Positions 2,459-24,292 of a stretch of 64,000 nucleotides of DNA are shown piece by piece. This stretch comes from Leucothrix mucor DSM 2157 (GTDB lineage: Bacteria; Pseudomonadota; Gammaproteobacteria; Thiotrichales; Thiotrichaceae): NCBI RefSeq assembly GCF_000419525.1, contig NZ_ATTE01000001.1:3197501-3261500 (forward strand). The letters are read 5' to 3'. The notes beneath the pieces were generated by a model, which saw only the letters and a program-made list of their open reading frames with translations, was not told where the DNA came from and did not search any database. Position numbers and translations under genes: made by a program. Every line of letters starts with the position of its first letter. The first letter of the stretch is position 1.

Positions 2459-2567
2459 AAAGTGCCTGCTTAAAATGCGCGTTTTAGGTATTTTAGTAAT
2501 ACGACGCATTTTATCAGGCAGATGCTGAGATGATATTTACCCTGCCATTTGCTTGGTTAAAGCTAAC

Positions 2568-6825: not shown

Positions 6826-8778
6826 CTAGATGCTATCGCAATTAACTGCCTGAATCGGGATAACCTTGCTTTGTCTTGGTGTTTTTTCCAACGCTTTCTC
6901 GATCATATTCGCTTTAACCGATGGCTTTGCTAAACGCTTATCAAACCAAAAACCAACCGGCTGCTCAAAGCCCAAACCGTGCATATAGTTGTACAACGCC
7001 TTTTTCAGCCCTTTACCCAGCAATTCGTGATCAGCCACCACCGGATCGCTAAACTCAATATCGTTACTGGCAAATCCTGCAAAGGCTGGCGGGTGCAATG
7101 TCACCCCATATTGCTCTGGCTTCTGCCCAACCGGACTGTGAATCGTTGCTGAGAAACGATGCCAATAGGCAGAGTGAATGCATTTGTGCATCATGAGCTG
7201 GCGTACATATTCTAACGAGTCGACAGTTTCCGCTTCAGTCTGCGAGGGGAAGCCATACATAAGATAGGCATGCACCAAAATGCCCGCATCGGAAAATGCT
7301 TTGGTCACTCGCGCCACTTGCTCGACCGTTACGCCTTTTTTCATCAGCTTCAGCAATCGATCGGAAGCCACTTCCAAACCACCGCTGACCGCTACACAAC
7401 CAGAGTCCGCTAATAACTGGCAACGCTCTGGCGTGAACGTCTTTTCAAAACGAATATTTCCCCACCAGGTAATAACGATGCCTTTCTCAATCAGCTTACG
7501 CGCCATGGCAAACATGACTTTAGGCGGTGCCGCTTCATCCACAAAGTGAAAGCCCGTTTGACCCGTTTCGGCGATTAGCGTTTCAATGCGCTCAACAATA
7601 ATGTCAGCTCCGGCCTCATCGTAGCGCCCGATATAATCCAAGCCGATATCGCAGAAGCTGCACTGCGTCCAATAACAGCCGTGCGCCATGGTGAGCTTAT
7701 TCCAGCGCCCATCGCTCCAGATACGATGCATGGGGTTTAGCATTTCACATAAAGATAAGTAGGAATCCAGCGGTAAGCCTTCATACACCGGCGTACCAAT
7801 CGCGCGATGCGGAATATCCGGTAGCGCGGACTGCTGCTGATAACACACCGCGCCATCATCCAAATAATAAGTACGGTGTAAATCCTGACGCTCGCAATTA
7901 CCCAAAAGGTGTTTGTACAAACGCAATAACGGCTGCTCGCCATCATCCAGCAGGATAAAATCCACAAACTCAAAAATACGCGGATCACTCAAGCTACGCA
8001 GTTCAGTATTAATATAACCGCCACCGAGCACGATGTGCGTGTTAGGCGAATGCTCCCGACAGGCCCGCGCAATTTGTAACGCACCCAGCATATTGCCGGG
8101 GAATGGCACGGTGATACCCAAGACATCGGGCTGCGTTTCTTGTAAATGCGCAACGACTAAGTGCTGAAGTGTGGCTTCGACCAAACTCACATCCGCATTG
8201 AGAATGCCATACAGATCGTCAAATGAAGGATTGGATGCAGCAAGGCTTTCACCGTAACGGGAGATTTCAAAGTTAACATCAACACCTTGATGAATCACCT
8301 GCACTAAGTCATCGATAAACAAAGTGGCCAAATGCTTGGCTTTATCCTGCGTGCCCAGCTCACCAAAAGCCCACTGCAAAATATCACCAGTGGCTTCGTC
8401 CAAACCGTGCAATCCTTCAAACGCAGGACCCTCCGGTAAAAATCGTCGCGACACAATCCGCAGCGCCAAACTCGGGTCTTTGCCTTGCAGGAAACGAATC
8501 GCAGGCGTTACACATTGGCGATATTGCTCAAACTCCGCCATAAACTGATAAATCACATCCGGCAGTTCGTCATCCTCAAATTCGGCGTAGTTATCTTCAA
8601 CCACTCCCAGAATCTGCTCCAGCCCCTCGGGCGTTAGCAAGGTGAGTAACAGCTCAATGGCCAGATCGCGCTGCGCCACGACAAAACCCTGTTCACGCAA
8701 AAAGCCAGTCAGATACGCTGTCGCAGGGTACGGCGTATTAAGCTGGGTCATCGGAGGAATGCAAAATAATGTTTTCAT
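6826..8778 (-). CDS. B12-binding domain radical SAM protein
   Basis: The 650-residue protein has a cobalamin-binding Rossmann-like domain (about residues 190-300, with TVPFPGNMLGALQIARACRE and VLGGGYINTE) followed by a radical SAM barrel. The cluster-binding motif is GCYWTQCSFCDIG, i.e. Cys-x4-Cys-x2-Cys rather than the common Cys-x3-Cys-x2-Cys. No DxHxxG cobalamin motif is obvious, so base-off cobalamin may be bound in a different way or not at all. The N-terminus MKTLFCIPPMTQLNTPYPA is typical of this group. It stands alone, so substrate and product are unknown. B12 genes occur later in the window (56-62 kb) but are not linked. Confidence 0.85.
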   Translation of the reverse strand: MKTLFCIPPMTQLNTPYPATAYLTGFLREQGFVVAQRDLAIELLLTLLTPEGLEQILGVVEDNYAEFEDDELPDVIYQFMAEFEQYRQCVTPAIRFLQGKDPSLALRIVSRRFLPEGPAFEGLHGLDEATGDILQWAFGELGTQDKAKHLATLFIDDLVQVIHQGVDVNFEISRYGESLAASNPSFDDLYGILNADVSLVEATLQHLVVAHLQETQPDVLGITVPFPGNMLGALQIARACREHSPNTHIVLGGGYINTELRSLSDPRIFEFVDFILLDDGEQPLLRLYKHLLGNCERQDLHRTYYLDDGAVCYQQQSALPDIPHRAIGTPVYEGLPLDSYLSLCEMLNPMHRIWSDGRWNKLTMAHGCYWTQCSFCDIGLDYIGRYDEAGADIIVERIETLIAETGQTGFHFVDEAAPPKVMFAMARKLIEKGIVITWWGNIRFEKTFTPERCQLLADSGCVAVSGGLEVASDRLLKLMKKGVTVEQVARVTKAFSDAGILVHAYLMYGFPSQTEAETVDSLEYVRQLMMHKCIHSAYWHRFSATIHSPVGQKPEQYGVTLHPPAFAGFASNDIEFSDPVVADHELLGKGLKKALYNYMHGLGFEQPVGFWFDKRLAKPSVKANMIEKALEKTPRQSKVIPIQAVNCDSI

Positions 8779-9007
8779 CGTCGTATTTTATATGATTTTA
8801 AGCAGAAACGGCATCAGCATGAATATGGCCTTTCATTAGCCCAGTCATGCACTATCGTCCTTACTTGTCTTGTGTTAAATTGACTTAAACAATAATAAAA
8901 AAAGAGAGTAAAATCGGCCTGCCTGATTAATTTTACTATGACGTCATGCATGCCTAATACATACAATAAATAACCCGCAGCTCTCTGGGTTTACAAGTGC
9001 TCACACA

Positions 9008-10267
9008 ATGGACAAAGACGTATCAGCTAAAACCGAATCGGAGAAAGTCCGGCTCGAGAATAAAGTGATTAAAACAGACCTACAATATCTTGTAGGACTG
9101 GTTCGCGCACACCTGAATTTAGACATCGCTTTTATTGCTAAATATGAGAAAGGGCAACGGGTGTTTTTGCACATTGATAGCAAGACCGAAGACAGCCCAA
9201 TAAAGCCGGATGACTCCGACCCCTTTGAACAAACCTATTGCTACAAAATCACCCAAGGCGAACTGCCTGAAATCATTAATGATACCAGCGCAAACCCCAT
9301 TACCCGTGGCATGGCGGTCACCAAAGCTTTGGACATTAAAAGCTATATTGGTGTACCGATCAGAACCGCTGATGGTAAATTATTTGGTACATTTTGTTGT
9401 ATAGGCCATCAGGTTGAACCGGCTTTAAGCGAGCGCGACCTTGCCTTTATTAAAGTGTTTGCTGAGTTTGCAGGCAAGCAGATTGACCAAACCCGCCAAC
9501 AGAGTAAAGATAGCCGAATCGTTGAAGATAAAATATTAGCGATGATCGAGTCACTCGACTTTGAAATTGCGTTCCAGCCGATTTATAACATGAACTTACA
9601 GCGCGTGGTGGGTTACGAAGCACTTTCCCGCTTTCCCGGCATACCTTACAACTCCCCTGATTACTGGTTTAAAGAAGCCTCCGATGTCGGGCTTGGTGAA
9701 GTGCTTGAAGCGCTAACCACCAAAAAAGCGCTGAGCCAAATGGACCTACTCCCTGAAAATACCTACCTCTCACTAAATGCCAGCCCGGAATATATTATCA
9801 ATGGCTCGGTTGGTCGTTTATTAGAGCAGGTTTCAGGCAAGCAGATTGTGCTGGAAATCACCGAGCATGCCCGCATCAGTAATTATGATGCACTCAGAGC
9901 AGCCCTACTCCCCTTGCGAGCCAAAGGCATTCGCTTAGCGATTGATGATGCCGGTGCAGGCTATGCCAGTTTCCAGCATATTTTAGAGTTAGGCGCAGAT
10001 ATTATTAAGCTAGATATTAGCCTGATTCGCAATATAGACAAGGATTCGGCGAGACGTGCACTCACCTCCGCAATGATTTCATTTGCTAAAAATACGGACT
10101 GTGAAATTATTGCAGAAGGCGTTGAAACCGCTGAAGAGCTTGAGACGCTCTGTGTGATTGGCGTTAGCAAAGCACAGGGATATTTTATTGGCCGGCCAAT
10201 GTCGACCGCTCAAATTGCCGAATCCAGCGCATTTACCATGCCTCCTGAGATAAGCAAAAACGCTTAA
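9008..10267 (+). CDS. GAF-EAL cyclic-di-GMP phosphodiesterase
   Basis: The 419-residue cytoplasmic protein has an N-terminal GAF sensor (about residues 20-165, ending in YIGVPIRTADGKLFGTFCC and the following helix) and a C-terminal EAL domain (about 180-410). The catalytic set appears complete: EAL in YEALSRF, Asn in SLNAS, Glu in LEITEH, the double Asp in AIDDAGAGYASF, Lys in IKLD and Glu in IIAEGVE. It therefore probably hydrolyses c-di-GMP to pGpG in response to a small molecule or redox cue bound by GAF. No partner gene is adjacent; pyrC converges from the right. Confidence 0.9.
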   Translation: MDKDVSAKTESEKVRLENKVIKTDLQYLVGLVRAHLNLDIAFIAKYEKGQRVFLHIDSKTEDSPIKPDDSDPFEQTYCYKITQGELPEIINDTSANPITRGMAVTKALDIKSYIGVPIRTADGKLFGTFCCIGHQVEPALSERDLAFIKVFAEFAGKQIDQTRQQSKDSRIVEDKILAMIESLDFEIAFQPIYNMNLQRVVGYEALSRFPGIPYNSPDYWFKEASDVGLGEVLEALTTKKALSQMDLLPENTYLSLNASPEYIINGSVGRLLEQVSGKQIVLEITEHARISNYDALRAALLPLRAKGIRLAIDDAGAGYASFQHILELGADIIKLDISLIRNIDKDSARRALTSAMISFAKNTDCEIIAEGVETAEELETLCVIGVSKAQGYFIGRPMSTAQIAESSAFTMPPEISKNA

Positions 10268-10304
10268 GCTCAGGTGGCAGTCACAAAATAGGCTTTATTT
10301 CTTT

Positions 10305-11351
10305 TTATACCACGCGCCACAGCAGTGGAAACTTAGGATTAAAGATTGTCATCGAACCGCCTGCAACCGACAACTTCTCTGAAATATCCACTGGCTGCGT
10401 CTGCTTTTCCAAAGTCATCATCGCCTCGTTCACAGATTTGCCGTAAAACACTGGTCCATTCAGTGATGCAAAGCGCTCCAAGTTTTCCAGCTTGCCTTCA
10501 TTTTCAAATACATGTGCCAATACCGACATCGTCACCGACACATTGAAAATACCAGCACAGCCGCAAGCACTCTCTTTTGCACCATCCAAATGCGGCGCAG
10601 AATCTGTGCCTAAAAAGAAACGCGCATCACCTGAGGTTGCCGCTTCGACCAAAGCCAAACGATGCGTTTCGCGCTTAGCCACTGGCAAGCAGTAATAATG
10701 CGGCTGAATACCACCGACCAGCATGGCGTTACGATTAATCGTTAAATGATGCGGAGTAATAGTTGCTGCCACATTCGACTCACAGGATTTTACAAACTCG
10801 ACGCCATCGGCCGTTGTAATGTGTTCAAGCACGATTTTCAGCTCAGGGAACTGCTTGCGCACACCCGATAAAATCCGCTCGATAAATACCGCTTCGCGAT
10901 CAAAGATATCAATCGCCGCATCCACGACTTCACCGTGCACCAACAATGGCATGCCAATATCCTGCATGGCTTCCAGTACCGGATAAATCGCTTCGATATT
11001 TTTAACGCCAGCAGCGGAATTCGTGGTTGCACCCGCCGGATATAACTTAGCCGCTGTGATATCGCCATTGGCAAACCCCGCACGCACATCGGCAGGATCT
11101 GTTTGCTCCGTCAGATACAACGTCATCAAAGGCTCAAAGGCCGAACCCGCTGGCAGCGCATCCATAATACGCGCGCGATACGCAATCGCATCCTGCGTTG
11201 TAATAACTGGCGGCACCAGATTTGGCATAATAATGGCGCGCCCAAAATGGTTGGCGGTATAGCCTGCAACGGCTTTGAGCATCTCGCCATCGCGTAAATG
11301 CAGATGCCAATCATCCGGTTGGTGTAATGTGATTTGAGTCGCGTCGGCCAT
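10305..11351 (-). CDS. pyrC: Dihydroorotase PyrC
   Basis: PyrC cyclises carbamoyl-aspartate to dihydroorotate in pyrimidine synthesis. The 348-residue type II (PyrC-like) enzyme shows the binuclear-metal ligands in order: HLH in [12 protein letters not shown], the carboxylated Lys in AAKLYPAG, His in LLVHGEV, His in VLEHITT, and Asp in LGTDSAPH. The ATG at 11351 fits the family; an in-frame start at 11444 would add 31 unrelated residues. An AGGGA precedes the chosen start. It is probably transcribed alone or as the tail of the copper locus, from which it is 96 bp away. Confidence 0.95.
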
Positions 11352-11447
11352 GCTAATTCCCTGATTGACTATGTGAATGCGCGTAAGCATAGCATTATGC
11401 AGACGCTTAGTAATCAGTCGGCATGTGTCACGCTCGCGAATCAATGC

Positions 11448-12587
11448 TCACCAAGTGATGCGTCCATTTTGGCCGACTGGCAAACTATTTTCCTGCTCAA
11501 ACTTAAACCGGACTTCCTGAGTTCTGGCTTGCCCCGTAACTATCGCCACAACCGAGCGCAGCGTGACTGGCAGCTGCTTATCCGCCACCTCAAAATAAAT
11601 CTGCTTAGCCTGCTTTAAACTCGTCAACTCGTTGACCGCTAACGAGGCCGTCACTTCAGCATCGCTAATCGCAATTAACTGAAACGCTTTTTCACCCGGC
11701 GCAATACGCTGCCCCAGTTGCACCATGCGTTGCACAATCTGCCCATCAAACGGGGCGCTTATCGTACAGCGGGACACCATTAAGGCTTCTGTTTTCAATC
11801 GGGCTTTGGCGGCGGATAACTTTGCCTCAATGGCTGTAATATCGGTTTTGGCCGCTTCCACATTACTCATTGCCGCGCGGGTTTTAGCTTGCTGCGCTTT
11901 GACCATTGCCTGAGCAGCGGTCGCCGTTGCCTGAGCGGTACCAATATCTGACTGCACTCCCACCAAAGCAGACTCCACCGCACTGCACTCCGCTTGCGCC
12001 GCTCGGTATTCGGTTTGAGCTTTATCCAACTCTTGTTGCGAAATTAGCCGTTGCTGGCGTAGGTTCCGGCTACGTTGCAATTCGATATTTGCCAGCTGGC
12101 ATTTAGCCGCATCCGCATTAACTCGGGATTTCGCTGCATTGTATTTTGATTTTGCCAAGGCAATTCGCGAGCGCTCTGCATCGGCTTGTGCCTGAGTGAG
12201 CTCCTCATTCGCTTTGCTGGCTTGGATATCGCTCAAGCGAATTTGAATGATTGATTGCGCTGATAGCAATTGCGCGCTCACCGTTTCAATATCGGCTTGT
12301 GCCTGCTCTAAGCGCGCATCATATTCCCGACAATCCAGATGCGCTAATTCATCACCCTGCTTTACGGTATCGCCAACATCCACATTAATGCGGTTGATAT
12401 TCGCTGAGACTTCCGCACTCACCAGCGCATCTTTCAAACTTAAAATGCTAGCTGGAACACTATCGGTCGTTTGCAGTTTTGTCACACTTGTGGCGACCAC
12501 CTCTTCCGCCAAAGCCAGGTTCACCGGCAAATTCGACACACATAACAAGCTAACACTCAATACAGATAACGCAGACAAACGATTCAT
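11448..12587 (-). CDS. HlyD/RND-type periplasmic adaptor, last gene of the copper locus
   Basis: The 379-residue protein has a signal peptide (about residues 1-27), a split lipoyl domain (ANINRINVDVGDTVKQGDEL ... CTISAPFDGQIVQRMVQLGQ) and a very long alpha-helical coiled-coil hairpin (about residues 90-260). A beta-barrel region follows and the protein ends at GQNGRITW, earlier than many adaptors. It differs from the CusB in the same locus: no heavy-metal-binding domain, a longer hairpin, no own pump gene beside it. It follows bufA by 105 bp across a hairpin. It could pair with another RND or MacB-type pump, or serve the bufferin; that is inference only. Confidence 0.85.
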   Translation of the reverse strand: MNRLSALSVLSVSLLCVSNLPVNLALAEEVVATSVTKLQTTDSVPASILSLKDALVSAEVSANINRINVDVGDTVKQGDELAHLDCREYDARLEQAQADIETVSAQLLSAQSIIQIRLSDIQASKANEELTQAQADAERSRIALAKSKYNAAKSRVNADAAKCQLANIELQRSRNLRQQRLISQQELDKAQTEYRAAQAECSAVESALVGVQSDIGTAQATATAAQAMVKAQQAKTRAAMSNVEAAKTDITAIEAKLSAAKARLKTEALMVSRCTISAPFDGQIVQRMVQLGQRIAPGEKAFQLIAISDAEVTASLAVNELTSLKQAKQIYFEVADKQLPVTLRSVVAIVTGQARTQEVRFKFEQENSLPVGQNGRITW

Positions 12588-12615
12588 GACGGACTCTCAG
12601 TTTTATTATAATCAG

Positions 12616-12642
12616 GCCTCACCTGTGAGGTTCAGGTGAGGC
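12616..12642. repeat. Hairpin between bufA and the HlyD-type adaptor gene
   Basis: A 10-bp perfect inverted repeat, gcctcacctg pairing with caggtgaggc, around a 7-nt loop. There is no T-run behind it on the minus strand, so it is not a classical terminator. It may protect the 3' end of the upstream mRNA or cause partial termination, separating bufA expression from that of the adaptor. Confidence 0.55.
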
Positions 12643-12692
12643 TTTCAAACAGTCGCACGGCATTAATACCCCCTCGCCGTGCAACGAATGGC

Positions 12693-12974
12693 TTACATTT
12701 TCATATCTTCGCCATCGACAACGGTGCCGCCAGCAATTTTGTCGCACGTGCCTTTAGGCAAGGTGATCCACTCTTCCGGGCCGTAATCTTCCTTCGCCAT
12801 TCCGGCACAGGCGTGCTCGCTCGTGCCGCACTCATTCATGCCCGCTTTGACAATACCGGAGCAACGCTCAGTTTCTGGCTTCGCATCATCAGCGGTTGCA
12901 CTGCCTGCACCCACTACGCCCAACGCCAATACGCCACTAATGGCAGCACTCATTAACAATTTATTTTGAGACAT
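12693..12974 (-). CDS. bufA: Bufferin-type copper RiPP precursor BufA (DUF2282 family)
   Basis: The 93-residue protein has a Sec signal peptide (about residues 1-28, ending SATA) and a small exported core with four cysteines at 38, 49, 56 and 77, in the contexts ERCSGIVKAG, MNECGTSEHACAGMA and KGTCDKIAGG. This is the DUF2282 pattern of bufferin precursors, whose core cysteines are modified by an MNIO enzyme to make copper ligands; the mature peptide is thought to buffer copper in the periplasm. The C-terminus is Met- and acid-rich. A GAGGA Shine-Dalgarno precedes the ATG. Unusually it follows cusA by 35 bp, while its enzymes BufB and BufC lie at the other end of the locus. Confidence 0.88.
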   Translation of the reverse strand: MSQNKLLMSAAISGVLALGVVGAGSATADDAKPETERCSGIVKAGMNECGTSEHACAGMAKEDYGPEEWITLPKGTCDKIAGGTVVDGEDMKM

Positions 12975-13009
12975 TATTTATTCCTCATTTCAGATTTAAA
13001 GTAACAGCA

Positions 13010-16000
13010 TTAAAACGACCGGCGTTTCCAGATCAAATAGATCGCCGGAATTACCAGCAGAGATAGCAATGGCGCTGTAACCATGCCACCAATCATGGGA
13101 GCTGCGATGCGCTGCATCACCTCCGAGCCTGTTCCGGTACCCAACATAATTGGCACCAAACCAGCAATAATAACCGCCACCGTCATGGCTTTTGGCCGTA
13201 CCCGCATCACCGCGCCTTCCATAATCGCAGCGCGCAAATCCGATTCTTGATTGATTCCGCCCTTATGCTCTTTCAAGGCGTTATCTAAGTAGACCAACAT
13301 AATCACGCCGAATTCCGCAGCGACACCCGCTAACGCAATAAAGCCGACCATTACCGCCACCGACACATTGAATTCCAGAATCCACAAATACCAAACACCA
13401 CCCGCCAAGGCGAAAGGCAATGACAACATCACCACCAGCGCCGAAATCATATTGCTAAAGGTCAGATACAGCAGGATAAAGATAATCACCAATGCCATTG
13501 GCACCAGCAGCTTCAACTTTTTCTCTACGCGCAGCATGTATTCGTATTGCCCTGCCCATGTAATGGAGTAACCCGGTGGCAACTTGATGCGCTCAGCCAC
13601 TCGGGCCTGTGCAGACTCAAGATAGCCGCCCAGGTCTACGCCGCGAATATCCACAAACGTCCAACCATTGAGGCGTGCATTCTCTGTTTTAATCATCGGT
13701 GGGCCTTCGGTGAATTGCAGGCTTGCCACCCGAGACAAGGGAATGTGCTCGCCAGTTGGCGTTACGATTGGCAGCTCCAGCAATTTATCGATGCTGTCTC
13801 GGCTATCGCGCGGATAACGCAAATTCACCGGATAACGCTCTAGGCCTTCCACGGTATTGGTAACATTCGCGCCACCTACAGCCGAACCAACCACCGTTTG
13901 AATATCGGCGATGTTTAAACCAAAGCGAGCGGCCGCTTGGCGATCAGGAGTCACCTCGATATAACGCCCACCAGAAACACGCTCTGAGAAAACCGACGCA
14001 GTACCGTCTAAATCACCCAGCGCCGACTCAATTTCTTTACCAATCTCCTCAATGACCTTGAGATCTTGCCCCGCTACCTTGATACCAACCGGCGTTTTAA
14101 TCCCAGTCGCCAACATATCAATACGGGTTTTGATCGGCTGCACCCAAGCATTGGTTAAGCCCGGAAATTTCACTGTGGCATTGAGCTCAGCGATTAGCTT
14201 TTTCAGCGTCATCCCCTCGCGCCATTCGGATTTATCTTTAAGTAAAATGGTGGTTTCGATCATGGTTAACGGTGCAGGATCGGTTGCCGTTTCTGCCCGA
14301 CCAATTTTGCCAAATACACGCTCCACTTCAGGTAGAGTTTTAATCAGGCGATCCGTTTGCATCAGCATTTCCTGTGCTTTACCAATCGACACGCCCGGTA
14401 AGGTGGTCGGCATATACAGGAGGTCACCTTCCTCCAGCTCTGGCATAAACTCAGAGCCTAACTTTTGGTAAGGGAAAATCACCGACACCATCACCAGCAA
14501 GGCAATAACAATCGTCGCCTTCGGCCAGTTGAGACAAGCTTTAAGCGCGGGTTTATACAGCGCTATTAGCAATCGGGATAAGGGGTTTTTCTGTTCGTTT
14601 GGAATATGTCCTCGAATGAAATATCCCATCAACACGGGAATCAAGGTGACCGATAAACCGGCTGCGGCGGCCATCGCATAAGTTTTGGTATAAGCCAGCG
14701 GCGAAAACATTCGTCCCTCTTGAGCCTCAAGCATAAACACTGGCACAAAGCTCAAGGTGATAATCAGCAACGAGAAAAACAACGCTGGCCCTACTTCTGC
14801 CGCCGCTCGCTCAATCACTTCCCAACGGTCTTCAACCTGACCATTTTCCTGCCAACGCTCCAAGTGTTTATGAGCGTTTTCAATCATCACAATCGCGGCA
14901 TCGACCATCGCGCCAATGGCTATCGCAATACCACCCAGTGACATGATATTGGCGTTAATTCCTTGCTGCTGCATGATGCTAAACGCAATCAATACGCCCA
15001 GAGGCAAACTGATAATCGCCACCAACGCCGAGCGCAGGTGAAACAGAAACACCAAACACACCAGCGCCACTGCAATAAATTCCTCACCCAGCTTAAAGGT
15101 TAGGTTATCAACAGCGCTTAAAATCAGCTCCGAGCGATCATAAGTCGTCACAATCTCGAAGCCTTCTGGCAGTCCGCCCTTCAGGGTTTCGAGCTTGGCT
15201 TTGACGTTATTGATCACCTCTAACGCATTTTCACCATAGCGCATGACCACAATGCCGCCGACTACTTCACCTTCGCCATCCAAGTCCACAATGCCGCGAC
15301 GCATTTGCGGACCGAGCTGGATATCGGCCACATCGCGTAGCAGAATTGGCGTACCGCTACCGGCATTGACGCCGACCGGTATCAGCTCAATATCTTGCAG
15401 ATTATTCAAATAGCCTTTGGCGCGAATCATGTATTCGGCCTCGCCCAACTCCATCACCGAGCCACTGGTTTCCTGATTACCACGCTGAATTGCGCGCTTT
15501 AATTGATCTAATGTGAGGTTATAAGCACGCAAGCGCTGCGGGTCGGCAATCACCTGATATTGCTTAACCATGCCGCCAACCGTTGCCACTTCCGAGACAC
15601 CGGGAACCGTTTGCAATTCAAACTTCAGGAACCAATCCTGCAAGCTACGCAGCTGTGATAAATCCTGCGAACCCGTGCGATCGACCAGTGCATATTCATA
15701 CACCCAACCCACGCCGGTAGCATCCGGCCCCAGCCTTGGTTGAACATCGGCTGGTAATTGGCTGGCTGCTTGGCTCAAATACTCCAACACCCGCGCACGC
15801 GCCCAGTAAATATCCGTGCCATCCTCAAAAATCACATAAACAAAGGAGTCACCAAAAAAGGAAAAACCGCGCACGGCCGTGGCTTTAGGCACCGATAGCA
15901 TGGTGGTGGTAATCGGGTACGTAACCTGATCTTCCACCACTTGCGGCGCTTGTCCGGCATAGCTGGTTTTGATAATCACTTGCACATCAGAAAGATCAGG

Positions 16001-16117
16001 AATGGCATCCAGCGGCGTCATCTTCACCGAGATAATGCCCCACACCATAAGCAGGCCCGCCAGCATCAATACCAAAAAGCGCTGCTGAATGGATAAGGCA
16101 ATCAGTTTTCTTAACAT
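13010..16117 (-). CDS. cusA: Copper/silver RND efflux pump inner-membrane subunit CusA
   Basis: The 1035-residue proton-driven transporter of the heavy-metal RND class has twelve membrane segments and two large periplasmic loops. TM4 carries [16 protein letters not shown], the proton-relay Asp/Glu motif of CusA-like pumps, and the cleft region has [17 protein letters not shown], where the Met corresponds to one of the copper-binding methionines of E. coli CusA. Monovalent Cu (or Ag) is therefore the likely substrate. It lies 10 bp after cusB. No outer-membrane channel (CusC-like) gene is in the window, so a shared TolC-type channel must be used. Confidence 0.93.
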
Positions 16118-16127
16118 TATCCGACCC

Positions 16128-17381
16128 TTACTGGCTCATGCGCTGAAAGCTAGCTTGCAGATTGCTTTCTGAATCAATCAAAAATTGCCCTGACAGCACA
16201 ACTTCATCCCCAACCTCTAAACCTTCAGTGATTTCCACCTGAGTCGCGGTTTTAATTCCCACTTTCACTACCACCGGTTTGTAGTGGTTTTCCTCAGTCA
16301 CTTTCACCACCCGATAGCCTTCTGAGCTTGGAATAAGCGCCTCACGAGGAATGGTCACCGCGCCCGCTACGGGGCGATTATTGATTTTCACGCTGGCAAA
16401 CATATTGGGTTTTAGCAGGCCATCTTCATTTTTAAACTTTAGCCGTACCTGCAAGGTGCGCGTTTTGGCATTTAACTCAGGATAAATATAATCCACCCGT
16501 CCCGTCCATTTTTCACCCGGCAGCGCATCCACTTGCATAGTGGCCTGAGCGCCCTTGCGGACCCAATTCAACTGATCTGGAAATACATCCACGATCACCC
16601 ACACATTGCTTAAATCCGCAATCGCATACAGCAAGGTCGCTGGTGTGACATACATGCCATCGCGCACGCCAATCTCTGTGACCACGCCATCAATCGGCGC
16701 AATAATGGGCACATGTGGCGTAATGGTTGCACGCTGCTCCAGATCTTTAATCACCGACTCCGAGACTTCCATCACGCGTAAGCGTGTCAGCACATCAACC
16801 TGTTTTTGGCGCTCGCTGGTGCTGCGCAAGGCCGTCAGGTAATCCTCTTGTGCGGTGTAAATTTCCGGAGAATAGTAACTGGCTAAGCGCTGACCTTGTT
16901 TGGCTTTATCCCCCAACACTCGCACCACGGGGTCTTTAATCCAACCACTGGCGCGTGCGTGAATATGAAAGAGTTTGCTCTCGTCATAGCGCACATAGCC
17001 AACCGTATCAATCGCGCGCGATAAGGTTCGTTTGGTAACTTTGCCTGTTCTCACGCCCATGCTTTGAGCGGTACTGGAAGAGACGCTGACAATCGGCATG
17101 CCATCACCACCGCCTTCACCCACCACTTTAAGTACCAGATCCATGCCACAAATCGGGCACGAGCCTTCCTCGCCCTGCTGAACTTGAGGGTGCATCGGGC
17201 AGATGTAAGTTGGGTCTGCGTGTTTGTTTGCGTGTTGCTCGGGCGAGTCCTTACGGGCCTCAACTAAGGGCTCAGAGCCAGGAATAATGCGCTCCAATCC
17301 GTCGGCGTGGGCCGTGCTAAAAAGACCGATAATAGCCAAGATCGCCACACCCGCAACGGGCGTAGTCCAATACTGTTTCAT
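16128..17381 (-). CDS. cusB: Copper/silver RND periplasmic adaptor CusB with heavy-metal-binding domain
   Basis: The 417-residue membrane-fusion protein links CusA to the outer-membrane channel and delivers metal. It has a signal peptide (residues 1-26), then a heavy-metal-binding domain [20 protein letters not shown] (about 58-77, followed by GMDLVLK), a lipoyl/hairpin core ([20 protein letters not shown] ... [20 protein letters not shown]) and a beta-barrel. The Cys-Pro-Met-His plus Cys-Pro-Ile-Cys-Gly-Met motif supports copper or silver. It is co-transcribed with cusA. Confidence 0.92.
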
Positions 17382-17420
17382 GCGTCATACTCAGGTAAAT
17401 GAAAAGAACTTCAGATAAAA

Positions 17421-17804
17421 CTAAGCTGGCATAACCCTGGGAGGTCGGTGATTTAGCGGGAGAAATAGCGTGAGAACGCTAGGAATGGCCATGGCCAACG
17501 GCATCGAGAAACCAATAAAATTGGCGGCATAAGGATGGATTTCATCCGGCACTTTAGCCGTATTAAAATGACCGCATTGGCAGTCATCCATATCGCAAAG
17601 CTTATAACTTGGAGACGCTGATTTGGCCGCTTCGACCATATCATCTGCGGGCATTTCCATCATGTGTGGCTGATGGCAAGGCGGCAAGGTTTGCGCAACC
17701 TTTTCAACCGATTCAGGCCCAGACATTCTCACCCACATCGACGCGGACGACACTGAGTTCAGCGTCATCAACAACAAGGTGAATAGAATAATGAGTGCTT
17801 TCAA
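17421..17804 (-). CDS. Small exported Cys/His/Met-rich protein of the copper locus (CopL/DUF2946-like)
   Basis: The 127-residue protein has a signal peptide (about 1-21), a central segment with PPCHQPHMMEMPADDM and KLCDMDDCQCGH, and a C-terminal hydrophobic segment (about 95-115) followed by HRPPRVMPA. The layout resembles CopL-type or DUF2946 proteins found beside copper-resistance genes, but I cannot be sure of the family. The clustered Cys, His and Met residues suggest copper binding in the periplasm. It lies between bufC and cusB, with gaps of 60 and 39 bp. Confidence 0.7.
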   Translation of the reverse strand: MKALIILFTLLLMTLNSVSSASMWVRMSGPESVEKVAQTLPPCHQPHMMEMPADDMVEAAKSASPSYKLCDMDDCQCGHFNTAKVPDEIHPYAANFIGFSMPLAMAIPSVLTLFLPLNHRPPRVMPA

Positions 17805-17864
17805 CGGAATATTTTGCTCGATTAATTAGCAAAAACTGTTACATAAAATAGTAGCTCGGGCAAG

Positions 17865-18641
17865 CTAAATAAAGGAACTCACCCATCCCTGCTGCACAGC
17901 GCTCGCCAATAAAGTCGCGACCTCTGCCTGAAACTCAGAGCTTAAGCCCTCCAAAGTAACGCCCTGCTGAACGGCTTGCAAAAACTGCCACTGCGCCAGC
18001 GATAAACGACTCTGCTGCAGCCTTCGCCCTTGTCGCCAAATGATGAGATACGTTTCATTTTCCAGCTGAATATTCGCTAACTGCGCTGAAACTTGTTGGA
18101 TATCACTTGATTGATGCGCCAGCCAAACCTCATCCGCTGCGACATCACAGTGCAATAATTGTGCCGATTGCGGTAAGAAAAAGCACAAGGCCGCTTGTTG
18201 CTGTTCATCCAAATGGGCCAACTGAGCAAAGTCACTAACTGCCTGATTCGCTTTATGCCATGCCACATGCCGCGCCCATTCCAAACACGCAACATCCACA
18301 ATCCAGCCAAGGGTTTTGAGCGCTTCATGTTGCTTTAAAAAGTCGACAAAGGTCGCGCCAAACTCTGGCAAATAAGGCGTACCCGGTGGCTGCTGGTCGA
18401 TATACACATCACACAATAAATCAAACCGTTGCTCGCCAATCAGCTGCCGACACACCGGATACAAAGCCGCTAAATGCTGACTTAAAATGCCATGCGCACT
18501 ATTGCGATAAATGCCCACGCGCTGTGCGGCGCTTAACTCGCCCTGCGCTTGCACATAGCCACTAGCAGCTTCCACATCAGCCTTGGCATTGGTGCTAAAT
18601 AGGGCTTGAGCAAATGCCTGTTGCAACTGGGTAAGATCCAT
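17865..18641 (-). CDS. bufC: BufC, DUF2063-type partner of the MNIO enzyme
   Basis: The 258-residue cytoplasmic protein has the DUF2063 N-terminal helical domain (QRVGIYRNSAHGILSQHLAALYPVC, split by the family into YRN and LYPV signatures) and a C-terminal winged-helix-like part that in related systems binds the precursor leader. It is the recognition subunit that presents BufA to BufB. Its ATG overlaps the bufB stop by one base (TAATG, 18639-18643), a sign of translational coupling and a complex. The precursor gene is about 5 kb downstream. Confidence 0.87.
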   Translation of the reverse strand: MDLTQLQQAFAQALFSTNAKADVEAASGYVQAQGELSAAQRVGIYRNSAHGILSQHLAALYPVCRQLIGEQRFDLLCDVYIDQQPPGTPYLPEFGATFVDFLKQHEALKTLGWIVDVACLEWARHVAWHKANQAVSDFAQLAHLDEQQQAALCFFLPQSAQLLHCDVAADEVWLAHQSSDIQQVSAQLANIQLENETYLIIWRQGRRLQQSRLSLAQWQFLQAVQQGVTLEGLSSEFQAEVATLLASAVQQGWVSSFI

Positions 18642-19468
18642 TATGCCAGCTTGCCAATGCGATCTAGAATGATCGTGGCTTTATCCGCCTCGGCTAATAA
18701 CACAGCCAGTGAAGGAATATTATTATCCCACTCGATTAAGGTCGGGACTGGGCCAAGCGTTTGCAGGGCAGTTTCATACAATGCCCACACAGGTTCGGAT
18801 ACCGGATAGCCATGCGTATCCAGCAAATGCGTACCGCGATCCTCAAAGCCGGCCAAATGTAATTGACGCACCCGCTCTGCCGGAATCGCACTCAAATAAT
18901 CCTCAGCCTCAAAGGCATGATTACGCGCGCTCACATAGATATTATTGATGTCTAACAACATGCCGCAATCCGCCGCCTCAGCCACTTCGCTGAAAAACGC
19001 CCACTCCGGCATCACCGAATCTTTATATTGCAAATAGCTGGAGACGTTTTCGATAATCAATTCACGCCCTAAAAATTCCTGCGCCTGCTGAATACGGGCT
19101 GCAACATGCTCAATCGTGGCTTGGGTATAGGGCAAAGGAATCAAGTCATGTGTGTGCATACCATGCACCGCCGACCAACACAGGTGATCAGAAATCCATG
19201 CCGGATTCACCTGATCAGCTAAGGCTTTCAGACGTTTTAAATAATCCTGATTTAAAGGATCAACCGAGCCAAGTGAGAGCCCAACACCGTGCATCACCAG
19301 TGGATAATGCTCCACAATCTCCAGCAAATAATCCTGCTGCACACTACCCTCAACCAGATAATTATCGCTCAACACCTCCAGCCAAGGAATCGCAGGACGC
19401 TCCGCTAAAATCTGCTCGATGTGTGAAAACCGCAGCCCGATACCGCAGCCCGAAATTATCTGATTCAT
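18641..19468 (-). CDS. bufB: BufB, DUF692 multinuclear non-haem iron oxygenase (MNIO)
   Basis: This 275-residue TIM-barrel enzyme modifies cysteines of RiPP precursors with O2. The metal-binding and family motifs are all present in order: LEVLSDNY, HGVGLSLGS, WISDHLCWS, LIENVSSYLQ, LLDINNIYVSARNH, QLHLAGF, DTHGYPV and LIEWDNNIP. I chose the ATG at 19468, which has AGGG about 11 bp upstream; an in-frame GTG at 19480 sits directly on that AGGG and is unlikely. It is the first gene of the leftward copper locus and divergent from the gamma-glutamyltransferase gene. Confidence 0.92.
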   Translation of the reverse strand: MNQIISGCGIGLRFSHIEQILAERPAIPWLEVLSDNYLVEGSVQQDYLLEIVEHYPLVMHGVGLSLGSVDPLNQDYLKRLKALADQVNPAWISDHLCWSAVHGMHTHDLIPLPYTQATIEHVAARIQQAQEFLGRELIIENVSSYLQYKDSVMPEWAFFSEVAEAADCGMLLDINNIYVSARNHAFEAEDYLSAIPAERVRQLHLAGFEDRGTHLLDTHGYPVSEPVWALYETALQTLGPVPTLIEWDNNIPSLAVLLAEADKATIILDRIGKLA

Positions 19469-19660
19469 TGTATTAAACACCCTGAAGGAGTTGGCAGTAT
19501 CTCAACTCTCAGCGTGCCTGTCACATACCCCTGCATAAACATTACACTTCCAAATCAACCCATTGATGAATTGATTTATCACGGCCTTGTCTGCAAAATG
19601 GCCTGAGTAAGCTTTCATTTCCCTAATCAGTTTAGACAGTAAAAATAACAGGAGGTTATT

Positions 19661-21403
19661 ATGAAAAGAGCCATGACAATACTGGCTTCAGCCATCACTT
19701 GTGCGCTGATCAGTAGTACCGTTATTGCTAAAGAATCCCGCTATCCGGAATTTGGCCACGGTCGTATTGAGCAGAATCTGGTAAAAGCCAGCGAGTACAT
19801 GGTGTCATCCGCCAACCCTTATGCCAGCGAAGCCGGTATGCGCATACTAGCCAAAGGCGGCAGTGCGATTGATGCGGCGATTGCGGTGCAATTAGTGCTG
19901 AACCTGGTTGAGCCTGAGTCCAGCGGAATCGGTGGTGGAGCCTTCTCACTGTATTGGGATAATGCTGAGAAAAAACTCTCCAGCTACGATGGTCGCGAAA
20001 AAGCGCCAATGGGCGTTGATGGCAAATTATTCCAGCAAGATGGCAAGAACATGAACTGGTGGGAAGCACTCGCTGGTGGTCGTTCGGTCGGTGTTCCCGG
20101 CGTATTAGCCATGTTGGAAAAAGCGCACCAAGCACACGGTAAACTGCCATGGGCTGAGCTGTTTGAAGATGCGATTCGCTTATCGGAAGAAGGCTTTGAA
20201 GTCTCGCCTAAGCTGGCGGCATCGGTTGCTGAGAAAACGAATCCGGCATTAGGCCGTTACGAAGCCACCTGGAACTACTTCTTCCCTGATGGCAAGCCAC
20301 TAGAAGCTGGCACCATGAAGAAGAACCCAGAGTTTGCAATGACCTTGCGTCGTATTGCCCTACTTGGTTCTAAAGGGTTCTATAAAGGTCAGATTGCCAT
20401 GGATATCGTGGGCGCTGTGCAATTTACAGCCGCTGATAACCCTGGAAAAATGATGCTGAGCGATTTGGCCAACTACGAGGCGATTGAACGCCCACCAGTT
20501 TGCGCTGAATACAAAACTTACAAAGTGTGTGGCATGGGACCACCAACCTCTGGTGGAATGACGGTTATCCAGATGCTTAAGCTGCTGGAAGATAAAAACC
20601 TCAGCCAATACGAGCCACTCTCTGTTGAAGCCGCTCACCTGTTTGCACAAGCTGGCCGCTTAGCCTATGCCGATCGTGGTACTTATATGGCCGATGCCGA
20701 TTTTGTAAATGTGCCGGTTGAAGGCCTGATCAATCCGGAATACCTGAAAGAGCGCGCCAAGCTGATCGGCGATAAAGATATGGGCGATGCCACCGCGGGT
20801 ACCCCACCGAATGCCAATATCAACTGGATTGCGTCCAAGTCACCTGAGCAGCCAAGCACCACGCACTTCAGCATTGTCGATAAAGAAGGCAACGGCTTCT
20901 CAATGACCTCTAGTATTGAAATGGCGTTTGGCTCTACCGTGATGGTTCGTGGCTTCCTACTAAACAACCAGCTGACCGACTTCTCATTTAGCGATGAAAA
21001 AGATGGCGAGAAAATTGCTAACCGTGTCGAGCCGGGCAAACGTCCTCGCAGCTCAATGTCGCCATTCATGGTGTTTGATAAAGATGACAACCTGAAAATG
21101 CTGATCGGCTCACCGGGCGGCAGTCGCATCATCAACTACGTGGCGCAAACCATGTTGGGTGTGCTGGAGTGGAATCTGGATGTGCAAACAGCGATTAGCA
21201 TGCCTCACTATGTGAACCGCAATGGCGCAACCGATCTTGAGCAAGATACCGATGCGGCTAAACTAAAGGAAGGCTTGGAAGCCCTAGGCCATACCGTTAG
21301 CGTGCGCGACCTTAACTCGGGTCTGCATGGTATTACCATTGGCGAAGATGGCATGGAAGGTGGAGCTGATCCACGCCGTGTTGGTCGGGCTTTAGGTAAG
21401 TAA
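19661..21403 (+). CDS. ggt: Gamma-glutamyltransferase (glutathione hydrolase)
   Basis: This periplasmic N-terminal-nucleophile hydrolase cleaves the gamma-glutamyl bond of glutathione and related compounds. The 580-residue precursor has a signal peptide (about 1-23), EPESSGIGGGAFSLYWD, and the autoprocessing site PSTTHFSIVDKEGNGFSMTS, where Thr becomes the nucleophile of the small subunit. The C-terminal LIGSPGGSRIINYV is also typical. AGGAGG lies 8 bp before the ATG. It is divergent from bufB and shares a 190-bp promoter region with the copper locus; a functional link through thiols is possible but unproven. Confidence 0.94.
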   Translation: MKRAMTILASAITCALISSTVIAKESRYPEFGHGRIEQNLVKASEYMVSSANPYASEAGMRILAKGGSAIDAAIAVQLVLNLVEPESSGIGGGAFSLYWDNAEKKLSSYDGREKAPMGVDGKLFQQDGKNMNWWEALAGGRSVGVPGVLAMLEKAHQAHGKLPWAELFEDAIRLSEEGFEVSPKLAASVAEKTNPALGRYEATWNYFFPDGKPLEAGTMKKNPEFAMTLRRIALLGSKGFYKGQIAMDIVGAVQFTAADNPGKMMLSDLANYEAIERPPVCAEYKTYKVCGMGPPTSGGMTVIQMLKLLEDKNLSQYEPLSVEAAHLFAQAGRLAYADRGTYMADADFVNVPVEGLINPEYLKERAKLIGDKDMGDATAGTPPNANINWIASKSPEQPSTTHFSIVDKEGNGFSMTSSIEMAFGSTVMVRGFLLNNQLTDFSFSDEKDGEKIANRVEPGKRPRSSMSPFMVFDKDDNLKMLIGSPGGSRIINYVAQTMLGVLEWNLDVQTAISMPHYVNRNGATDLEQDTDAAKLKEGLEALGHTVSVRDLNSGLHGITIGEDGMEGGADPRRVGRALGK

Positions 21404-21418
21404 CACTCGCTTAAATTC

Positions 21419-21457
21419 AGGCTTTGATTGCTCGCTTCAATGGGAGTGATCAGAGCC
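21419..21457. terminator. Possible hairpin between convergent ggt and DUF952 genes
   Basis: aggctttgat pairs with atcagagcct (9 of 10, one wobble) around a long loop between the two convergent genes. No strong T-run follows on either strand, so the termination role is weak. Confidence 0.35.
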
Positions 21458-21463
21458 TGTCAC

Positions 21464-21826
21464 TTAAAGTAAAGCAAGCCTATCCGGCAGATTAAACTCT
21501 CCTTGCTCTGAGGTTTGAAACGTAAGCACCTCAACCACCGCATCAGCATTAATCGCCCCATAAATATGCGGATACAGTTCACCCAAATCCGATAGATCTT
21601 CATCCACAACCTCACTCTCTAGCTGGCTGCGATCAATGCACAGTATCAACGGCCCTTCGACATCCTTAAAATATTTATTGGCAACCCGAAGTAGTTGATG
21701 AGGGTAGGAGCAATGAATGAAACCTTCCGCCTCCAAGCTTGGCTCTGTGTGTATACCTTTCTGTTTTGACTGACTCCACTTTTCGGCGGTTGTAATGCAA
21801 TAGATCAACGTGTTCTCTATGCCCAT
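21464..21826 (-). CDS. DUF952 family protein
   Basis: The 120-residue cytoplasmic protein has IYCITTAEKW, EGFIHCSYPHQL, LILCIDRSQLESEVV and LYPHIYGAINADAVV, the order of conserved blocks in DUF952. The fold is known to resemble ADP-ribosyl-handling domains, but the role is unknown. I chose the ATG at 21826, with GAGGA at good spacing, over one at 21841. It is divergent from the NAD(P)-binding gene next to it. Confidence 0.82.
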   Translation of the reverse strand: MGIENTLIYCITTAEKWSQSKQKGIHTEPSLEAEGFIHCSYPHQLLRVANKYFKDVEGPLILCIDRSQLESEVVDEDLSDLGELYPHIYGAINADAVVEVLTFQTSEQGEFNLPDRLALL

Positions 21827-21915
21827 GGCTGTTTTCCTCATGATATTTACCCAACGGTTGAAACACTCTTTTCAGACCCCATCGTCTGTAGGGTACCAAT
21901 AATTGGAGAGTTTAA

Positions 21916-22551
21916 ATGAACAAGACACTTATTATCGGCGCTAGCGGACAAATCGGTAAAATGACCACCCAGCAAATGCTGGACAATGGCCACGCCGTCG
22001 TTGCACTCGTGCGTGATAAAAGCAAGCTAGCTGATATTTCCAGCGACAAGCTACAGATCGTTGAAGCCGACCTAGAAGAAGATTTTAGTCATGCATTTGA
22101 AGGCTGCGATCAGGTGATTTTCAGTGCTGGCTCCGGTGGTAAAACCGGTGCAGACAAAACCATGCTGATTGATCTATGGGCTGCCTGCAAAGCCGCAGAT
22201 TACGCTAAAGCCGCCAATGTATCGCACTTTGTAATGGTAAGCTCAATTGGCGCGGATGAGCCATCTTCCGGCTCTGAAAAAATGAGACCCTATCTAGTTG
22301 CCAAGCACATGGCTGATGAGCATTTGATCCGCAGTGGTCTCAACTACACCATTCTCAGACCCGGCTCATTAAACGATAATGACGCCACCGATAAAGTACA
22401 AACCCAGCGCCCGAGCAACAGAGATGACATGGTAATTAGCCGTGAAGATGTCGCTCATGCGCTAAGTTATGTTGTGGGTAAGACTGAGCTGAATGGCAAG
22501 ATATTTGAGCTGTTTAATGGGGATAAAGACTTCGCCGAGGTGTTGAATTAA
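21916..22551 (+). CDS. NAD(P)-binding atypical short-chain dehydrogenase (NmrA/YwnB-like)
   Basis: The 211-residue single-domain protein starts with the dinucleotide-binding turn LIIGASGQIGKM, has DQVIFSAGSGG, a Ser-x-Tyr-type region MVSSIGADEPSS ... RPYLVAKHMADEHL and LNYTILRPGSL. These mark an atypical SDR; the Tyr-x-x-x-Lys pair is present as Tyr-Leu-Val-Ala-Lys. The substrate is unknown; such proteins often serve in redox sensing or flavin reduction. GGAGAG precedes the start, and a strong terminator follows. Confidence 0.85.
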   Translation: MNKTLIIGASGQIGKMTTQQMLDNGHAVVALVRDKSKLADISSDKLQIVEADLEEDFSHAFEGCDQVIFSAGSGGKTGADKTMLIDLWAACKAADYAKAANVSHFVMVSSIGADEPSSGSEKMRPYLVAKHMADEHLIRSGLNYTILRPGSLNDNDATDKVQTQRPSNRDDMVISREDVAHALSYVVGKTELNGKIFELFNGDKDFAEVLN

Positions 22552-22588
22552 CTAGCCCTCTAACCGCTTAATGGCACATCCTATATTT

Positions 22589-22624
22589 AGTGCCCTATGC
22601 CACTCATAGGGCACTATAATTTTT
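22589..22624 (+). terminator. Rho-independent terminator after the SDR gene
   Basis: An 11-bp perfect stem, agtgccctatg with catagggcact, loop of 5 nt, followed by ataattttt. It ends the rightward SDR gene before the accessory region. Confidence 0.85.
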
Positions 22625-22716
22625 GCTCCGCTAGTGTCGCTTCAACCTCTCACGGCAACTCTTCTTCATTAGACAGATAAAGCTGGCACTTCTGAACAAA
22701 ACAAGCCTTTATCCAT

Positions 22717-22824
22717 TCAATAGGCCACATACTCAACCAGCAACTCATTTTTATCTTTACTGAGAATAATACCTATCAGTAGATTACCATCTTCAATATT
22801 TTTCTCAGCTGCAAAGTACACCAT
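22717..22824 (-). pseudogene. Fragment resembling the C-terminus of a DUF1016 (YhcG-type) nuclease
   Basis: A hand-read 35-codon frame starts 5 bp past the hsdM stop and reads IEDGNLLIGIILSKDKNELL then VEYVAY and a stop. This resembles the end of the PDDEXK domain of YhcG/DUF1016 proteins (consensus about P-S-I-G-L-L-L-C-K-x-K-N-x-x-x-V-E-Y-A-L), including a Lys of the nuclease core region. The N-terminal 300 or so residues are absent. DUF1016 genes are frequent in type I restriction loci, so this is probably what is left after a deletion. The match is from memory and short. Confidence 0.4.
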
Positions 22825-22828
22825 CTGT

Positions 22829-24292
22829 TTACTCGTAACCCAATTTACGTAAAGAGCCCGCCATTTCCTTTTCTAATACCGCCAACTCATTCTGCAACTC
22901 CAAGCGCTCAGCCCACACAGCCCTTAAATCAATCTCCACTTTCTCTTCAAATGTATCGACATATCGCGGAATATTGAGGTTGTAATCGTTACTATGAACC
23001 TCCTCGAGACTGGCAAGATAGGAATATTTATCAATGCTTTCACGAGCATGGTAGGTATCGACAATTTTATGGATATTCCTAATAGTTAGGCGGTTTTGGT
23101 TTTTGCCTGATTCAAACTCGCGGGAAGCATCGATAAACAGGACTTTATCATCAGTTTTTTTCTTTTTAAAGATCAGAATCACAGCGGGAATACCCGTCCC
23201 AAAGAACAACTTTTCTGGTAAACCAATCACCGTATCCAGCAGGTTTTCATCGATCAGTTTTTGACGGATTTTACCCTCGCTAGAGGAGCGAAATAATACA
23301 CCATGGGGTACTACAACGCCCATGCGACCGGTATCAGGCTTGAGGGTTTCAACCATGTGAGAGATAAATGCGTAATCAGCTTTACTTTTGGGTGGCACAC
23401 CCCGCCAGAAGCGCCCAAAGCGATCCTCAACTGCGTTTTCATATCCCCATTGAGACATACTAAATGGGGGATTGGCAGTCACTACGTCAAAATGCAGCAA
23501 GCCGCCCGCTGAGTCTTGAAGCTTGGGATTGCGAATGGTGTCGCCCCATTCAATACGATGGTTGTCTTCACCATGCAAAAACATATTCATTTTTGCCAGC
23601 GACCACGTTGAGCCAACTTTTTCTTGACCGTAGAGTGTGTACTTTCTTGAGCCATTGAAGTTTTTCTGCACCTGTTTACCACACTTTATCAATAGTGACC
23701 CCAAGCCACAGGCAGGGTCGCAAATGGTATCTCCTTCTTGTGGTTCAAGGATAATCGACAACAAATCAGAGACCTCAGATGGAGTGTAGAACTCCTCCGC
23801 CGACTTACCAGTACTCTCTGCGAAGTGTTTAATCAGGTATTCATAAGCATTTCCAATCACATCTAGTGTGCCAACACAACTCGGTACAAGATTAAGTGCA
23901 TCCCGACCAAAGTCTTCCAACAAGTGACTTAATATATCGTTCTTTTGCTTTTCAACACCCAGTCTATCCGTATTGAAACTGATTCCTTGAAACACGCCTT
24001 CCAGCTTGCTGTTAGCTTCTTCAATGGAGTGTAGTGCTTTATCAATTCGCTCGCCGTTTCCTTCTCTATGACGCGCCTCATACAAATCCCAAAATGAGCA
24101 ACCATGGGGAATGTTATAAGACTCAGCGGTTAACCCCGTCGCCTTGTTCCGATGCATGTCTGAAATGTACTTCAGGAAAAGCATGGTGAGGATGAAATCT
24201 TTATAATCAAATGGCTCCAATATGCCGCGAAAAGTGTCACAAGCGTACCAAACGGCCTTGTTGATTTTATCTTGGTTTATTTCATTATTCAT
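22829..24292 (-). CDS. hsdM: Type I restriction-modification DNA methyltransferase HsdM
   Basis: The 487-residue N6-adenine methyltransferase has the helical N-terminal domain (WYACDTFRGILEPFDYKDFI), the SAM motif ICDPACGLGSLLIK and the catalytic VTANPPFS (NPPF). The C-terminal helix ending LRKLGYE contacts HsdS. I chose the ATG at 24292, which forms an ATGA overlap with the hsdS-like stop (24289-24292); a start at 24322 would add 10 odd residues. No hsdR is in the window, so this is either a methylation-only or decayed system. Confidence 0.9.
   Translation of the reverse strand: MNNEINQDKINKAVWYACDTFRGILEPFDYKDFILTMLFLKYISDMHRNKATGLTAESYNIPHGCSFWDLYEARHREGNGERIDKALHSIEEANSKLEGVFQGISFNTDRLGVEKQKNDILSHLLEDFGRDALNLVPSCVGTLDVIGNAYEYLIKHFAESTGKSAEEFYTPSEVSDLLSIILEPQEGDTICDPACGLGSLLIKCGKQVQKNFNGSRKYTLYGQEKVGSTWSLAKMNMFLHGEDNHRIEWGDTIRNPKLQDSAGGLLHFDVVTANPPFSMSQWGYENAVEDRFGRFWRGVPPKSKADYAFISHMVETLKPDTGRMGVVVPHGVLFRSSSEGKIRQKLIDENLLDTVIGLPEKLFFGTGIPAVILIFKKKKTDDKVLFIDASREFESGKNQNRLTIRNIHKIVDTYHARESIDKYSYLASLEEVHSNDYNLNIPRYVDTFEEKVEIDLRAVWAERLELQNELAVLEKEMAGSLRKLGYE

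Follow-up and report, generated by a model that had tools for sequence, protein, structure and literature searches.

A bufferin precursor gene located behind a heavy-metal efflux pump gene in Leucothrix mucor and two congeners

In the 64-kb window of Leucothrix mucor DSM 2157 (i.e., the whole stretch of DNA that was analyzed, 64,000 nt), the bufferin precursor gene bufA is located directly downstream of the pump gene cusA and is separated from the genes for its modification enzymes by the pump genes. The minus-strand gene order is bufB-bufC-copL-cusB-cusA-bufA-MFP, followed by pyrC, and the identical seven-gene row was found in two congeners (genomes G003 and G006; L. mucor is G000). The conserved unit is therefore the whole row, beyond the bufA-cusA pair. 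This combination of bufferin and copper pump genes was seen only in this genus, and the displacement of bufA alone is not unique to it. The row is a real and inherited rearrangement and not a new kind of system, and it offers a setting in which a coupling of copper binding to export can be tested.

Gene content and conservation of the row

The first gene of the row, bufB (18641..19480; this and all following genes on the minus strand), encodes an MNIO (DUF692) bufferin maturase (PF05114, 364.8 bits; NF050167 MNIO_BufB, 377 bits against a cut-off of 310). It shares 1 nt with bufC (17865..18641), which encodes the DUF2063 partner protein (PF09836, 76.3 bits; cut-off, 27.2). The MNIO and DUF2063 genes of a bufferin cluster are thus both present, and bufA lies five genes after bufB in all three species, out of the bufABC order. 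The third gene (17421..17804) has a TTG start and encodes a small Cys-rich protein with a signal-like N terminus; we use "CopL-like" as a label only, because its NF033807 (CopL) score of 23.3 bits is under the cut-off of 40. It is followed by cusB (16128..17381), encoding an RND periplasmic adaptor with a heavy-metal-binding domain (PF16576, 256.5 bits; PF19335), and by cusA (13010..16117), encoding a heavy-metal efflux RND pump (TIGR00914, 1289.9 bits; cut-off, 701.45). The last gene, MFP (11448..12587), encodes a second periplasmic adaptor of the HlyD/RND MFP family (TIGR01730, 115 bits; cut-off, 94.9). MFP directly follows bufA in all three species, with no permease gene of its own alongside; its product is 67% identical in G003 and G006, and its relatives elsewhere in the family are weak. 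No dedicated copper regulator was identified within the row.

The bufA gene (12693..12974) encodes a Buf1/DUF2282 bufferin precursor of 93 aa (PF10048, 75.1 bits; cut-off, 22.4). Its score with NF050166 (NCBIfam BufA2), 23.2 bits, is below the cut-off of 60, and the protein was not classed as Buf2. The N terminus (MSQNKLLMSAAISGVLALGVVGAGSATADD), as read from the sequence, resembles a Sec signal peptide, and the four cysteines C38, C49, C56, and C77 are all present and are invariant across 17 aligned homologs. A sequence search of the PDB gave no match. The end of cusA (13010) and the start of bufA (12974) are separated by a gap of 35 nt, in which a GAGGA ribosome-binding site (12982..12986) precedes the ATG by 7 nt; bufA of G003 and G006 has a GAGGA/AGGAG-type site at the equivalent position. 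The distance from bufA to bufC (end at 17865) is 4.9 kb, and that to bufB is 5.67 kb. The initial annotation, which placed bufA 35 bp after cusA behind a good GAGGA site and about 5 kb from its modification enzymes, was therefore accurate in all of these respects.

A profile search of window positions 8001-24000 detected no other DUF2282 open reading frame, which rules out a second bufA before bufB. The rest of the G000 genome yielded two weak bufA-type matches only (E values of 0.005 to 0.007), one being a different precursor that adjoins a second MNIO gene 1.1 Mb away and the other a frame interrupted by stops. The second MNIO-DUF2063-DoxX cluster of this genome (G000:C1:2079413-2080748; locus L056) has the standard order, and its 123-aa four-Cys precursor matched no NCBIfam model at an E value of 0.001 and is preceded by CATCCAA-N14-CGTA. 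G003 and G006 also carry a further MNIO cluster (L257 1120-1491 and L259 3661-4032), with the precursor stretch KCVGAAKGGENDCGALDGSHDCAG and a Cys layout that differs from that of Buf1.

Among the seven genomes of the genus, three contain bufA and this CusA, all in the identical row (bufB-bufA distances of 5.65 to 5.67 kb; intergenic gaps of 1 to 105 nt), and four contain neither gene, of which only G002 is near complete and three are incomplete. Because the order and near-equal distances recur in two further species, neither chance nor misassembly accounts for the row. Identities between the rows range from 92% (CusA) through about 80% (BufA) and 44 to 57% (BufC) to 30 to 43% (CopL-like protein), indicating that the gene order outlived much sequence change. 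The neighbors of the row are ggt and pyrC in G000, a transposase fragment and multicopper-oxidase genes in G003, and a radical-SAM gene and a RelA/SpoT-like gene in G006. Retention of the row in all three bufA-bearing congeners favors a working operon over an accident.

Several other genes were noted in these regions. Multicopper-oxidase (CopA-like) genes lie about 8 kb to the right of the window end (L254 6113-7849), similar to those adjoining the G003 row. In G006, a broken MNIO-DUF2063 pair (L038 482-1817), with TAG and TAA in its frame, is located about 4 kb away from the intact row. Genes for an EgtD-like methyltransferase and an EgtB-like protein, probably an ergothioneine pair as judged from the sequence, lie at window positions 360-2509 (minus strand).

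Promoters, hairpins, and the expression of bufA

Family bufA genes share an upstream motif, CATC[CT][AG][AG]-N13-16-CGTA, which is nearly always CATCCAA-N14-CGTA and mostly lies 90 to 140 nt before the start codon. It precedes 13 of 19 family bufA genes, compared with 0.026 expected from shuffles. As the motif had been defined on these original loci, we tested 14 held-out family loci fetched later, and 8 of them carried it. The form CATCCAA-N14-CGTA was observed before bufA at the Thiotrichaceae loci L039, L041, L043, L046, L047, and L049-L053. The two-block layout is of the ECF-sigma promoter type, making the motif a candidate promoter (matched to no sigma factor), and the shared motif probably marks a copper/envelope-stress sigma regulon of the Thiotrichaceae. 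Neither the window nor the sequence surrounding the rows of the congeners (17.6 and 19.9 kb) contains a match to the motif, and before bufB and bufA of the three displaced rows its best scores were at the level of shuffles. On moving, bufA lost the ECF-type promoter motif of its family.

The bufC-copL gap contains a promoter-like element of putative function, TTGCYC-N16-TAAMAG (17836..17863, minus strand), with a TG before the second box. In an alignment of the three species its spacing is fixed, and the rest of the gap varies. The element is the sole match in 64 kb (0.04 expected) and agrees only moderately with sigma-70 sites. It was not found before cusB of the sister genus, and it was rejected as an old cus promoter of the family. 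The sequence before bufB is poorly conserved.

An unrecognized promoter of bufA in the 3' end of cusA would make its expression independent of the pump and its position incidental, a possibility that we consider unlikely. A promoter of an unscanned type could be concealed in the 35-nt gap and the approximately 300 nt of coding sequence that precede it, and a 9-of-12 match to sigma-70 is present at 13000-12973; however, this only site found overlaps the start codon of bufA, promoter-like sites in the gap and the cusA 3' end were at chance level (11 found, 12.3 expected), and none of the three displaced bufA genes had an upstream ECF-like motif that scored above background. A strong promoter of its own, which the initial annotation had named as the observation that would speak against pump-linked dosage, thus did not emerge above background in the region in which it was looked for.

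We favor expression of bufA together with the pump; transcription would begin at the copL-proximal element or reach these genes by read-through from a promoter of bufB. The earlier proposal that bufA dosage follows the pump fits the loss of the family motif, the background-level site count, and the copL-proximal element, from which we infer co-transcription and dosage themselves. Two features count against a single transcript that yields enough precursor: the 60-nt bufC-copL gap and the 105-nt bufA-MFP gap leave room for internal initiation or termination, and a distal precursor in a 7-kb operon would normally be made in smaller amounts than the enzymes, which inverts the stoichiometry usual for RiPPs.

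Two predicted hairpins are located between the bufA stop codon and MFP on the minus strand, hairpin 1 at 12653..12684 and hairpin 2, with a 10-bp stem and compensatory changes between species, at 12616..12642. RNAalifold on the three species yielded 19 pairs for both hairpins, of which 8 have compensatory changes, a covariation count that comes from few (i.e., three) sequences. The folding energy was below that of shuffles in each species, modestly so (z values of -2.9 for the G000 stretch with both hairpins, -2.4, and -1.9). Hairpin 2 was rejected as an intrinsic terminator, because it has no U tract and ends close before the ribosome site of MFP. A strong hairpin likewise follows bufA in several standard-order relatives, and those of G011, G016, and G018 have U tracts; terminator-like hairpins with U tracts were located after bufA of standard-order clusters at L041 6994-7102, L053 9803-10003, and L047 16314-16420. 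In such clusters, the U-tract hairpins possibly set the precursor-to-enzyme ratio, as partial termination would raise the precursor over the enzyme. The hairpins of the displaced rows may stabilize the bufA part of the message, which would offset its distal position.

Distribution and origin of the displaced order

The initial annotation took bufferin precursors to sit usually directly upstream of bufB, and this is right as a rule. We surveyed 184 distinct bufA genes (from the family, 80 named genome loci, and 60 class loci; a sample and not a census), of which 133 stand directly before bufB, 16 share its strand but are located only downstream of it, and 35 have no bufB on that strand within the stretch examined. 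The bufABC order has been reported as strictly conserved (PMC12452194); our counts make it a strong rule with exceptions. The gene directly upstream of bufA is cusA in only three cases, all of them from this genus (upstream sequence of 1 kb or more was available for 173 genes). In a few other lineages the precursor is likewise displaced, but no pump accompanies it. L172 (= G074) and L099 (a Methylotenera metagenome-assembled genome) have the order bufB-bufC-bufA as in the row described here, but with bufA nearly adjacent to bufC and no cusA, and at L086, L111, L127, and L191 bufA lies farther downstream of bufB-bufC on the same strand, with unrelated genes between and again no cusA. As in L. 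mucor, no precursor was found directly before bufB at these loci.

Other candidates were set aside. The pump at L194 (G052) is of the HAE1 type, with an opposite-strand gene between the RND gene and bufA, and at L106 cusA lies 6.9 kb from bufA but on the other strand, and bufABC is standard. The bufA of G028 (L040) is not a pseudogene, the reported stop being the normal end of a shorter protein. A total of 73 plasmid records with relatives were left out of further analysis. No shared bufferin-Cus gene row was found in the literature searched or in the other loci surveyed.

The host order consists of one family, for which 63 genomes were available, 36 of them with bufA. Gene order in these close relatives indicates that the rearrangement is real: sister genera have bufABC with cusBA elsewhere, and the congeners share the row. 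In the rest of the family, bufA comes first at every locus where bufB adjoins it, and some genomes have additional lone or tandem bufA genes. In sister genera, copL-cusB-cusA is a separate unit wherever cusA could be placed; in G025, in which copL also precedes cusB at the equivalent position, it lies 0.95 Mb from bufABC on one contig. A BufB tree of 135 sequences groups the three displaced loci together (support, 0.988) within the family clade (support, 0.927), and the other members of this clade with bufA beside bufB all have the standard order. Because the tree nests the genus inside a standard-order clade, the displacement is, as judged from these sequences, derived and maintained, and it probably represents a single event. 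Relatives with standard order and distant cus genes, which the initial annotation had counted against the linkage, are therefore present at the family level but not inside the genus, where bufA-bearing species keep the linkage; their order dates the change and does not refute the linkage. Its alternative suggestion, a rearrangement that moved either the precursor or the pump, is supported as far as a derived rearrangement is concerned and seems to hold together with pump-linked expression. Two routes, a tandem duplication with subsequent loss and the insertion of a circle at another site, would each produce bufBC-copL-cusBA-bufA.

A neutral or decaying rearrangement without functional coupling, in which BufA may be unmodified or served by the second MNIO pair, seems still less likely than a hidden promoter. 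Stand-alone or displaced bufA genes are common in the survey (the 35 and 16 genes mentioned above), and the second MNIO-DUF2063-DoxX cluster is present at G000:C1:2079413; that second MNIO gene, however, has an adjacent precursor of its own, and the order, spacing, ribosome site, Cys pattern, and 3' hairpins are kept in three species despite the divergence of BufA and BufC, in rows that sit in different surroundings. The least probable of these alternatives is assembly of the row outside the family and its acquisition ready-made as an island by horizontal transfer, as the best extra-genus matches of BufB (69%), BufA (69%), and CusA (79%) all belong to the same family, BufB groups within the tree of the family, and the placement of copL ahead of cusB is native to the family, although the three copies have different neighbors (one beside a transposase fragment), four congeners lack the row, and MFP has no close family relative. 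Movement of the row within the genus is compatible with the data.

The reading that we prefer, with moderate confidence, is that bufA came under the control of the cus operon, with the 3' hairpins protecting its message; it builds on the observed gene identities, order, conservation, derived state, loss of the family motif, and conserved hairpins. In the ancestor of the three species, a bufABC cluster would have merged with the copL-cusB-cusA operon of the family, leaving bufBC in front and bufA, without a promoter of its own, behind. BufA, its two modifying enzymes, and the CusBA pump would then be produced from one co-directional, presumably copper-responsive and co-transcribed row. BufB and BufC would modify the cysteines of BufA in the cytoplasm, and the peptide, exported by Sec, would capture excess copper in the periplasm as CusBA pumps copper out. 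Given the position of bufA toward the end of a long message, the hairpins that follow it may protect the upstream RNA and help to supply enough precursor.

Relationship to known bufferin and Cus systems

The row offers a natural experiment on whether copper binding and export need matched amounts and on how a RiPP precursor encoded so far down a long operon is still made in useful amounts. It also indicates that genuine precursors can be overlooked when a search is confined to the position immediately upstream of MNIO genes. In a further-reaching scenario, which we regard as improbable, the bufferin would serve this Cus pump as its periplasmic copper carrier, replacing CusF and handing copper to CusB/CusA, with its synthesis locked to the pump; a ribosomal peptide metallophore would then act as part of an RND efflux system and not as a passive sponge. 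CusF (PF11604) is absent from G000, G003, G006, and seven relatives (the Escherichia coli control was positive), which says little about a BufA-CusBA handover because relatives without the linkage also lack CusF.

Excess periplasmic copper is bound by bufferins (PMC12452194), and Cus pumps likewise act on copper in this compartment. In Cupriavidus metallidurans, cus and the bufferin operon, gig, are found at different loci; Gig in combination with glutathione enables Cus to raise copper resistance (PMC10304878). The row described here resembles the Buf1 bufABC systems (Caulobacter; C. metallidurans gigPABT; PMC12452194, PMC10304878) in its DUF2282 four-Cys precursor with a signal-like N terminus, its MNIO BufB, and its DUF2063 BufC. 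It differs from them in that the precursor gene follows bufB by five genes rather than directly preceding it, pump genes stand between enzymes and precursor, doxX is missing from the row, and the ECF-type promoter motif of the family has been lost. With the Cus system (cusCFBA), it shares co-directional genes for CusA and for a CusB with a heavy-metal-binding domain; in contrast to cusCFBA, the row contains no cusC and the genome no CusF-family gene, a CopL-like gene stands in front, and bufferin genes flank the pump genes on both sides.
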